DNA from: an uncultured Lachnospiraceae bacterium
GTDB taxonomy: Bacteria; Bacillota; Clostridia; Lachnospirales; Lachnospiraceae
NCBI GenBank assembly: GCA_949893755.1
Contig: CATLCV010000004.1
Span: forward strand, 1-64,000
Reading direction: 5' to 3'
DNA length: 64,000 bases
A model generated the notes under the pieces. That model was not told the origin of the DNA and did no database searches. It was given only the letters and a program-made list of their open reading frames with translations. The number at the start of each line of letters is the position of its first letter. Positions within the stretch are counted from its first letter, which is position 1. Made by a program: the position numbers and the translations under genes. Below, one piece after another: positions 33,651 through 38,723 of the stretch.

Positions 33651-33742
33651 TATACCTTGTGAAACGGCCGAATGGCCATAATGGGATGCCCTTGGGTATA
33701 CCTTGTGAAATGGCCGAATGGCCATAATGGGATGCCCTTGGG
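33651..33742. repeat. 46-bp near-perfect tandem direct repeat (x2)
   Basis: TATACCTTGTGAAAYGGCCGAATGGCCATAATGGGATGCCCTTGGG repeated with one mismatch; contains GGCCGAATGGCC palindrome. Confidence 0.9.
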
Positions 33743-33868
33743 TATAAAAGAACAGAATTTCTACTACAGGTTCAATGACAGATTGGGAAGTTTTTATTAT
33801 GATGATCCTGATACAGGCAATTTGTAATGGAATATGGCCATTCCATTCAGAAGGAAGGAGACAGGATC

Positions 33869-34243
33869 ATGAAAGTAAGAACAGATTTTGTAACAAATTC
33901 GAGCAGCAGCAGTTTTATTTTGGCGAGGAAAGGGGAACTGACGGAGAAGCAAAAGGATATCATTGTGCAGCTTGTTGTGGATAGAATGCTTGGCGAAAGG
34001 ATACTGATCCCTGAAAATAGTGAGGAAGAAATACAAAAAGTATTTGAAGAGCATTATATTGAAGAAGACGATCAGAAACAGATCAGAACTGCATTAAAGG
34101 AAGGAAAATCCATTTACAGCGGTTGGATCAGCTTTGAAGAAAGTGATTATAATCTGGCAAATATGTTCACCAGACTGTGGGAAAAATTAGAGGAAGCGGA
34201 CAGCGATCATTTTGAAACCATTGACGGCTCATTGGATTATTAG
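33869..34243 (+). CDS. Small acidic protein with N-terminal KVRTDFVTNSSSSSFI motif
   Basis: 125 aa from ATG with ggaaggagac RBS; 14 bp before radical SAM gene. Confidence 0.75.
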   Translation: MKVRTDFVTNSSSSSFILARKGELTEKQKDIIVQLVVDRMLGERILIPENSEEEIQKVFEEHYIEEDDQKQIRTALKEGKSIYSGWISFEESDYNLANMFTRLWEKLEEADSDHFETIDGSLDY

Positions 34244-34257
34244 GGGCAGGACAGGGT

Positions 34258-35352
34258 ATGAGGATACGAAAAGAAAAAGAGTTCTTATCCTTTTTTGATG
34301 AAGAGACCGGGCGGTATATGCGGACAGGCATCATCAAAGGGGGAAAGGATACAGGGGAGGACCCTTTTATGAGTTCCTTCCCGGAGCTTCTCGATGTAGG
34401 GATCATGGGGCACTGTAGGCATGGAAAAAGCGGATTATGTATAAAAGCAGGTGTAGAATGCTACCAGGACGGCCTGCACGCGGAACAGCCCAATATGAAG
34501 CTGCAGGATTTTAAAGAGCTTACAGCCCAGTGCCGGGGGAAGACGTATCAATTTGCTTTGGGCGGCTGCGGAGATCCGGATCAGCATGAGAATTTTGAGG
34601 AGATACTGCATTTATGCAAAAACGCAGGTATCGTGCCTAATTTTACGACCTCCGGGCTTGGAATGAATAAACACATTGCCACACTTTGTAAGAAGTACTG
34701 CGGTGCAGTTGCTGTCAGCTGGTATCGAAGTGAATACACGCTCCATGCCATAGAATTGCTGACGGCGGCCGGGGTGAAAACAAATATCCACTATGTTCTG
34801 GGCAGGCATACGGCTGCGGAAGCACTGCAGAGATTAAAAGAACGCAGCTTTCCCGAAAAGATCAACGCAGTTGTGTTCCTGCTTCACAAACCAGTGGGAT
34901 TAGGCAGCCGCGGCAATATGATCCGGCAGGATAACGAAGACTTCCGAAGGCTTATAGAGTATGTATCTTCCGAGTCCTGCCGCTATAAAATCGGGTTTGA
35001 TTCCTGTACGGTTCCCGCATTGATCAGGCATCCGGGAAATATAGACGCAGACAGCCTGGACACATGCGAAGGGGCCAGATGGTCAGCCTATGTCACTCCG
35101 GATATGAAGCTGCTGCCCTGCAGCTTTGACAATCAGGAGCAGAGATGGGCGGTGGATCTGAAAACACATTCTGTGCAGGAAGCCTGGAACAGTGAGCGCT
35201 TTGAGGAGTTCAGGAATCATTTCCGCAGGGCATGCCCCGGGTGCGGGATCAGGGCACAGTGCATGGGCGGCTGTCCCATCAGACCGGAGATCGTCTTGTG
35301 CAGTGGGAAAGAGAATACAGTCACAGAAGCAGCAGGCGGACGGATTGGATGA
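34258..35352 (+). CDS. Radical SAM/SPASM-like protein with Cx7Cx6C N-terminal cysteine motif
   Basis: GHCRHGKSGLCIKAGVEC...LGGCGDPDQHENFEEIL...CPGCGIRAQCMGGCPIRPEIVLC. Confidence 0.82.
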   Translation: MRIRKEKEFLSFFDEETGRYMRTGIIKGGKDTGEDPFMSSFPELLDVGIMGHCRHGKSGLCIKAGVECYQDGLHAEQPNMKLQDFKELTAQCRGKTYQFALGGCGDPDQHENFEEILHLCKNAGIVPNFTTSGLGMNKHIATLCKKYCGAVAVSWYRSEYTLHAIELLTAAGVKTNIHYVLGRHTAAEALQRLKERSFPEKINAVVFLLHKPVGLGSRGNMIRQDNEDFRRLIEYVSSESCRYKIGFDSCTVPALIRHPGNIDADSLDTCEGARWSAYVTPDMKLLPCSFDNQEQRWAVDLKTHSVQEAWNSERFEEFRNHFRRACPGCGIRAQCMGGCPIRPEIVLCSGKENTVTEAAGGRIG

Positions 35353-37134: not shown

Positions 37135-37293
37135 AGTCAGAGGGACAATTGGCCGGATGCCTTGCACCGTGAGTTGTATCCCGCTGCAAGGCACCGCATG
37201 GGATTCACCGTTCCATAAATTTGTTAAGAAAAAATCGTATTGTCCCTTTCACGCATATTTGCTATACTTTATGATAATAGAAGGAGGGTGCCT

Positions 37294-38723
37294 ATGAAAA
37301 TCATAAATATCCCTGTCGGAACTTCGAATTTTGCCGAGATCCGGAGGAAAGGCAGCTATTTTATCGACAAAACAGGTCTGATCGTACAGCTGCTGAAAAC
37401 ACAAAGTACAAAAGCGACATTGATCACACGGCCCCGCCGTTTCGGAAAAACACTTTGCATGAGTATGCTGTCGGAATTTTTTGACATACAAAAGGAAAGC
37501 AGGCATTTATTCGCCGGGCTTTCTGTCAAGATAATGACTCACTGGAACTTGCGGTGATCACAGGCTGTCTTAGGATCGCCAAAGAAAGCATTTTCACCGG
37601 GACGAATAATTTCGTGTCCGATACCATTTCCGATACGCAGCTCAATGAATACTTTGGATTTACCCAGGACGAAGTGAACCGTCTGCTTGCAGACACAGGG
37701 CTTACGCCTTATGCAGCTGAGATCAAGGAATGGTATAACGGTTATCATTTCGGTGATTTCGATGTGTATTGCCCCTGGGATGTCATGAACCATGTACAGA
37801 ATCTGCTTCTGGATCCGGGCTCGAAGCCTAAAAATTTCTGGGAAAATACGAGTGACAATGCCATCATCCGTACCTTTTTAAAAAGAACGGATTTTGATGT
37901 AAATGACAAGTACGAGACACTGCTTGCAGGAGGATATATAGTAGAACCTATTGAGGAAAATCTCACTTATGATGTGCTGGAGGGGTCGGAAGAAAATCTG
38001 TGGAGCCTGCTGTATCTGACGGGATACCTGACAAGAGCACGCCTGGAGGAGATTCCGGAGCTGCAGCTGCTTCCCGGCCAGTATGCGCTGAAAATTCCCA
38101 ATAAGGAGGTTCTTGGGATCTTTAAGAAAAGTGTTAAAGCCTGGCTGATGGAAACTACCGCGCAAAAAGACCGGAGGGAATTATTTGCGGCATTGTGGGA
38201 TGCGGACGCAAAACGGCTGACGGAGTTGATCTCGGATCTGCTGTTTGATACCATCAGCTATCATGATTATGCCGAAAGCTTCTACCATGCATTTCTCACC
38301 GGACTGTTCTCTAACGCCGGATACCGGGTGGAGTCCAATTATGAATATGAAAACCGGATCATTGTCCAGAACAGGACTACGCATTTACTGCGCTGTCCGT
38401 ATGATAACATAAAAATTGCAGAAGCAAGCCCCATTGCCGAAGGCAATTTTCATGGGCTTGCAGGTGCATCTGTGAAGGATACTGAACAGATGCACTTAGG
38501 ACGATCCGATATTGTGATCAAAGACCGGAAAAACCGCAGAGCCGTTGTCCTGGAGGCAAAGCGGACATACGATGAGGATAAGCTGGAGAGTGACTGCGAC
38601 GAAGCGCTTGCGCAGATTCAGAAGAAACGATATGTAAAAAAGGCAGAGCGCGACGGGTATAAGAATGTAGGCAGGCTGGGCATTGCGTTCTTTCAGAAGA
38701 AGTGCCTGGTGAAAAAAATGTAA
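37294..38723 (+). pseudogene. AAA-ATPase-like/PD-(D/E)XK nuclease (DUF1703-type) gene with internal deletion and frame change
   Basis: 5' ORF has IPVGTSNFAEIRRKGSYFIDKT...TRPRRFGKT; 3' ORF 37554-38723 has ITGCLRIAKESIFTGTNNF...VVLEAKRT; region between (Walker B) missing and frame shifted near 37530. Confidence 0.85.

Follow-up and report, generated by a model that had tools for sequence, protein, structure and literature searches.

Known radical S-adenosylmethionine (SAM) enzymes, which belong to a superfamily in which three cysteines, usually arranged as CX3CX2C, bind a 4Fe-4S cluster, modify either small precursor peptides or the members of a single protein family. Two auxiliary clusters are usual in SPASM enzymes and one in twitch enzymes (PMC9012708). 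Among enzymes of the SPASM type, SuiB, SkfB, CteB and ChlB are peptide cyclases (sactipeptide and streptide maturases), and the triceptide (3-CyFE), darobactin and dynobactin enzymes act on the cores of small precursor peptides; the C–C bonds that SPASM enzymes form join Phe to Ser (i,i+2) or Phe to Asn (i,i+2) in triceptides and Trp to Asn (i,i+3) in dynobactin (PMC11002830). The anaerobic sulfatase-maturing enzymes (anSMEs) modify a Ser or Cys of a full-size protein, within an internal motif of one protein family. Here we describe a gene pair in a 64,000-nucleotide stretch of DNA from an uncultured Lachnospiraceae bacterium (positions 1 to 64,000 of contig CATLCV010000004.1, assembly GCA_949893755.1; hereafter the window). 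As the first-pass annotation of this DNA had read it, a small acidic protein beginning MKVRTDFVTNSSSSSF is encoded 14 bp (34244-34257) upstream of a radical SAM/SPASM enzyme. The enzyme belongs to a known kind. What is, to our knowledge, undescribed is a portable N-terminal tag that ties a single radical SAM enzyme to dozens of mutually unrelated proteins and that the enzyme probably modifies.

Like SuiB, SkfB, CteB and ChlB, with which it shares the whole-chain fold, the window enzyme has the SPASM auxiliary-cluster cysteines and a short cognate gene next door. However, its sequence identity to these enzymes is only 12-17%, its cluster motif is CX7CX6C, and no recognition element (RRE) of the kind used for ribosomally synthesized and post-translationally modified peptides (RiPPs) was found. 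Its partner is a folded protein of a variable family rather than a small precursor peptide, and genes for leader removal or export are lacking. Indeed, the partners of this enzyme family, in place of the short precursors of RiPPs, are whole proteins of up to 919 amino acids, that of the window being folded and 124 amino acids long. The chemistry of the triceptide, darobactin and dynobactin enzymes would suit the conserved aromatic-x-[T/S]-N of the tag (PMC11002830), an analogy that stops at their small-peptide substrates. The proposed system would resemble the anSMEs in that a SPASM enzyme modifies a full-size protein, but one enzyme is here linked to dozens of unrelated proteins via an N-terminal tag; in addition, no anSME model was among the NCBIfam matches of the window enzyme, and the linked gene is not a sulfatase. 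The lipobox and sortase signals follow a comparable portable-tag logic, whereas the proposed system would use radical chemistry. No NCBIfam or Pfam family covers the tag/enzyme system. In the PHROG library the enzyme family corresponds to PHROG 7293 (E value 2e-271 for the enzyme of the T4-like phage RB16 and 2.9e-25 for the window enzyme) and the tag family to PHROG 7397, matched by 31 of 69 tagged representatives; both are listed with unknown function and are unconnected there. In the largely open-access literature that was searched, the motif did not turn up in any paper, nor did a paper that connects phage and SPASM enzymes in such a manner.

The first-pass annotation had proposed the Ser-rich N-terminus as a recognition or modification site for the enzyme, and the linkage of the two across genomes, examined in both directions, is real and much larger than it had implied. 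Scanning 85,000 species genomes by means of a five-sequence enzyme alignment returned 230 relatives. At 76 of the 80 bacterial enzyme loci that were examined a tag open reading frame (ORF) is present, always on the same strand, 53 times upstream and 23 times downstream, at a median distance of ~14 bp. Of the four tagless loci, three are truncated on one side by a contig end, and the remaining one (L022) has a near duplicate, L023, that is tagged. In the 5.87-Mb genome that contains the window, the tag DNA pattern occurs once, at the window site. Of 291 genomes of the same class, 5 contain the enzyme and 4 the tag DNA pattern; three genomes have both, side by side, and the fourth tag match is a chance ORF of ~39 amino acids. 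Among 325 genomes of the window's order, 9 have the tag, 13 the enzyme (called at E < 1e-30) and 8 both (p 4e-12 by Fisher's test, 9e-11 when the window genome is excluded). The one genome with a tag but no enzyme at this threshold is 78% complete, and its tag is located ~1.5 kb short of a contig end. With a relaxed pattern, most of the enzyme-positive, tag-negative genomes show variant tags near the enzyme (KYRRSFVTNSSSSSF, KIRKGFVTNSSSTNF, KIRSDFVTNSSSVSY and KYRTGFVTNSSSSSN), and the two that are still tagless hold enzyme fragments. Low-complexity Ser runs are generally common and one chance match was indeed seen (G123), so that common Ser-rich N-termini in accidental neighborhoods might be supposed to yield such a picture. 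That explanation is refuted and retains a negligible probability: reversed-pattern controls gave 0 in nearly all genomes, and the linkage itself (76/80; p ~ 4e-12) argues against it.

The cassette is sporadic, occurring in about 4% of the genomes of the order. Most of its hosts are Lachnospiraceae or other Clostridia, and Synergistota, Chloroflexota, Actinomycetota, Bacteroidota and others contribute single genomes; because most of the genomes are metagenome bins, the unusual hosts must be viewed with care. The system is not restricted to Firmicutes, in which the first-pass annotation had placed similar N-terminal Ser runs, and is abundant in large phages, including T4-like ones. As a separate observation, an XRE-type helix-turn-helix (HTH) protein of ~105 amino acids (PF01381) is encoded beside the enzyme/tag pair at 20 of the 80 bacterial loci (e.g., L028:11151-11462) and is absent from the window.

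The tag comprises 16 residues with the consensus MKxRxDFVTNSSSSSF. Over all of its variants, or flavors, the core K-x-[RK]-x-[DGS]-[FY]-[VI]-[TS]-N-S-S-S is constant, and position 14 tolerates S, T, A, C or V. Across 262 tags the entropy is near zero at K2, N10, S11, S12, S13 and S15 and reaches background level by position 19; the search pattern required K2 and N10 but allowed Thr at S11-S13 and S15, where Ser was found nonetheless. All six Ser codons are used in these tags, which rules out conservation at the DNA level, and the tag is constrained at the protein level. The AlphaFold2 model of the window tagged protein shows a well-folded body (mean predicted local distance difference test, pLDDT, 88), and residues 1-10, at a pLDDT of about 50, are predicted to be disordered. 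The tag has the properties of a portable N-terminal stretch that is predicted to be flexible.

The proteins that bear the tag are diverse. By their bodies, the 265 unique tagged proteins, 47-919 amino acids long, sort into 69 clusters. Profile–profile comparison of two large body families aligned only the first 24 residues, that is, the tag and a few more, and for another pair only the first ~41 residues, comprising the tag and a weak extension. Body clustering and these comparisons rule out shared ancestry of the whole tagged proteins; at the level of sequence there are about 69 body families without detectable likeness beyond the tag. The window body belongs to a conserved family with ~57 members in gut bacteria. 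It has no credible family in Pfam or NCBIfam, and Foldseek returned no match with E < 0.001 in the PDB or BFVD. Pfam searches of the tagged bodies as a whole gave one BspA-type leucine-rich repeat protein and otherwise weak single matches, profiles of three body families retrieved no convincing match from the PDB, and a zinc-ribbon-like body family has a weak match near noise (E 0.009). Two features of individual bodies may be mentioned. The most widely distributed phage body family (L100-L192, alignment A6) has the C-terminal sequence Y-x-D-x-DG...LEH...SHH, whose D, E and H residues are invariant, reminiscent of a metal or catalytic site. In the tagged protein L003:2551-3981 the tag is directly followed by a hydrophobic stretch and an AMA-A site, which resemble a signal peptide or a membrane anchor.

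The flavors of the tag, defined by positions 4, 6 and 9 (R/K4, D/G/S6 and T/S9), are RDT, RDS, RGT, RST, KDT and RGS. When mapped onto a tree of 139 enzymes, RGS proves limited to one phage clade, RDS to one supported clade and KDT almost wholly to a clade with a CX3CX2C motif and a shortened SPASM domain. The flavor label changes 24 times on this tree, compared with a mean of 54.5 when shuffled, a pattern to which shared ancestry alone would contribute. In a sharper test, made within genomes, at loci with two or more unrelated bodies the flavors agree in 97% of 231 pairs, compared with 63% after shuffling within body families, and none of 2000 such shuffles reached the observed agreement. The same body families bear D-, G-, S- or K-type tags depending on the genome. 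This agreement within genomes indicates that the tag tracks the genome and its enzyme and not the body.

To approach the phages from the tag, viral contigs were selected solely by the DNA pattern FV[TS]N-Ser5-F written with AGY serine codons. Enzyme family members are carried by 10 of the 14 tag-selected viral records, mostly within a few kb of the tag; the other 4 have none and may, as phage contigs in general may, be fragments. IMG/VR contains at least 119 relatives of the enzyme, and most of the closer ones adjoin arrays of 1 to 7 different tagged proteins. In one phage clade the neighbors include tail sheath and virion proteins, so that these are true tailed phages, and at several loci of that clade none of the patterns applied revealed a tag. 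The enzyme also occurs in isolated T4-like phages (RB16, Miro, Lw1, KP15 and others; about 170 records), where its annotation is at best "radical SAM superfamily protein". In RB16 and Miro no tag adjoins the enzyme, but each genome encodes exactly two GFVSNSSSSSF proteins, about 20 kb away, and this co-occurrence shows that the association persists without adjacency.

The phage loci have further features of note in their own right. The two tagged proteins of the T4-like phages RB16 and Miro flank a 739-amino acid protein with a vWA domain (NC_014467.1 66610-71000; NC_041981.1 67179-71549). At five phage loci (L122, L123, L124, L125 and L179) the enzyme is preceded, immediately or at a short distance, by a reverse transcriptase similar to those of the DRT/UG and CRISPR-linked types, and in L122:674-2083 this reverse transcriptase is fused to a YspA/SLOG domain (PF00078 and PF10686). 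Proteins that, judged from sequence, resemble Thg1-type tRNA-His guanylyltransferases are encoded near the tag arrays of phages L107, L123, L125 and L179.

The tail sheath and virion genes beside the arrays of one phage clade, together with the presence of the tag on many unrelated proteins, as is the case for targeting signals, bring up the notion that the tag is a localization, assembly or packaging signal, for example to a phage compartment or virion, and that the enzyme serves the same process without acting on the tag. We regard this as improbable. In bacteria the locus is often no more than the enzyme and one tagged protein, without compartment or virion genes, the flavor of the tag follows the enzyme clade, and the tag is hardly seen without the enzyme in near-complete genomes.

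The enzyme of the window carries the N-terminal cysteines C53-x7-C61-x6-C68, followed by C270-x17-C288 and C326-x2-C329-x5-C335-x3-C339-x8-C348, which make up a complete SPASM cysteine set. Both the unusual N-terminal spacing and the Cys-rich, SPASM-like C terminus had been picked out in the first-pass annotation, and both are upheld: the former is conserved in nearly all close relatives of the window enzyme and the latter matches PF13186 (30.2 bits, cut-off 21.5) and TIGR04085 (29.3, cut-off 27). In Pfam and NCBIfam the SPASM domain alone is recognized; no named family spans the protein and there is no PF04055 match. Across the family the cluster motif forms a graded series, CX3CX2C, CX5CX3C, CX5-7CX2C and CX7CX6C, and, as other members are canonical, the window motif is, on the sequences compared, a clade-specific enlargement of CX3CX2C and not a random oddity, at a putative 4Fe-4S site. 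In phage enzymes of the G-tag and K clades the last SPASM cysteines are missing, which leaves the SPASM set incomplete.

The AlphaFold2 model of the window enzyme (pLDDT 94.3) has the partial or full TIM-barrel of the radical SAM fold. Its top fold matches, above all others, are SuiB (Z 26.1 over 318 residues), SkfB (Z 23.6), anSME (anSMEcpe, Z 22.0), CteB, ChlB and PqqE, every one of which acts on peptides or proteins. By sequence, the window enzyme on its own retrieved only spurious PPR matches and a weak PqqE match from the PDB, and a search with the enzyme family profile matched SkfB and PqqE. Viperin-like enzymes are also among the fold matches (Z ~19), and one phage member of the family weakly matches the pVip model (E 9e-05), which would fit an enzyme acting on a small molecule or nucleic acid, with the tagged proteins binding it via the tag as adaptors or regulators. 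This seems very unlikely. The viperins cover fewer residues and score below SuiB, SkfB and anSME, the full SPASM set of the window enzyme is typical of peptide modifiers, and a single small-molecule enzyme would have no need of as many as 7 distinct tagged partners.

Because the tag is shared by ~69 unrelated bodies and its flavor co-varies with enzyme clade and genome, we favor the view that it is the recognition and modification site of the enzyme. In this respect the proposal of the first-pass annotation stands, except that the critical element is MKxRxDFVTNSSS and not the Ser run alone. We consider it probable that the enzyme recognizes the tag and radically modifies its FVTNSSS segment on all tagged proteins, the pair forming a stand-alone protein-modification cassette. 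In such a scheme the 16-residue N terminus would serve as a transferable tag, the radical SAM/SPASM enzyme would bind it and modify residues most likely within the strictly conserved [F/Y]-V-[T/S]-N-S-S-S, and the folded body, different in each tagged protein, would then bear the modified N terminus. The preferred candidate chemistry is a C–C crosslink that joins the aromatic F/Y7 ring to the beta carbon of either T/S9 or N10; by analogy, not membership, the spacing of [F/Y]7-V-[T/S]9-N10 would fit the bonds formed by SPASM enzymes noted above (F7-T/S9 or F7-N10). A second candidate, again by analogy, is oxidation of a conserved Ser as by the anSMEs.

A conserved N terminus followed by very diverse sequence is also the layout of RiPP leader families, and the tag might be a docking leader only, with the enzyme modifying residues in each body. 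Some bodies do hold conserved Cys/His or D/E/H sets, and tag–enzyme co-variation suits docking equally. This possibility is unlikely, in that the bodies are folded domains of up to 919 amino acids with no common acceptor motif, the residue-by-residue constraint through S15 exceeds what docking alone would need, and no protease or exporter is conserved. Modification of the tag itself is the reading that we prefer, and several points weigh against it. The tag could be recognized without being modified; that it is modified we infer from sequence and predicted structure. The invariance of K2 and N10 is partly imposed, because the tag search patterns fixed both, and the co-variation of tag and enzyme is partly expected from the shared descent of neighboring genes. 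The truncated SPASM set of the phage G-tag and K clades may mean that the chemistry differs between clades. Finally, when a third conserved partner was sought at the 80 bacterial loci, no protease, exporter/transporter or RRE was found and an HTH gene occurred in 20 only, leaving the enzyme and tagged protein alone conserved.

The features of the window locus are collected in the table below. An alternative in-frame ATG at 33827 would extend the tagged ORF; the start at 33869 is preferred because of the GAAGGAAGGAG site and because relatives begin at the same place. With a terminator-like stem over the enzyme stop codon, both genes resemble a single short operon. A PLSDB search gave no match and a plasmid location is not supported; neither window protein matches the PADLOC models at E 0.001, which gives no assignment to known anti-phage defense. 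Directly 5' of the tagged gene lie two adjacent 46-bp direct repeats, 98% identical, with GGCCGAATGGCCATAATGGGATGCCC (33651-33742). An AAA-ATPase-like gene of the RPRRFGKT type, apparently split by a frameshift, is located at 37240-38723, and its family recurs near other bacterial loci.

Table 1. Features of the tagged gene/enzyme locus, in window coordinates
Feature	Position	Strand	Remarks
Likely ribosome-binding site of tagged gene, GAAGGAAGGAG	33850..33860	+	8 bp 5' of ATG 33869
Tagged protein gene, 124 amino acids, acidic	33869..34243	+	ATG to TAG
Tag MKVRTDFVTNSSSSSF, N-terminal 16 codons of tagged protein gene	33869..33916	+	
Folded alpha/beta body of tagged protein	33917..34240	+	AlphaFold2 pLDDT mostly >90; without known fold match
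Radical SAM/SPASM enzyme gene, 364 amino acids	34258..35352	+	ATG to TGA
CX7CX6C radical SAM cluster motif, C53-C61-C68 (predicted)	34414..34461	+	
SPASM cysteines C270 to C348	35065..35301	+	Two auxiliary clusters expected
Intrinsic terminator-like stem, 11 bp, overlapping enzyme stop codon	35338..35364	+	1 found, 1.9 expected in shuffles; weak alone

Collectively, these data tie one enzyme family to about 69 protein families by one short N-terminal tag, both in large phages, T4-like ones among them, and in gut bacteria from several phyla. The chances are about even that this represents a general protein-tagging system, in which phages and gut bacteria would tag unrelated proteins, one dedicated enzyme would install the same radical-made modification on them, and enzyme and tag would co-evolve. 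If the tag is modified, it would represent a new class of protein labeling and provide a first function for hundreds of phage "hypothetical proteins", and it could yield a genetically encodable tag for radical-made modifications.
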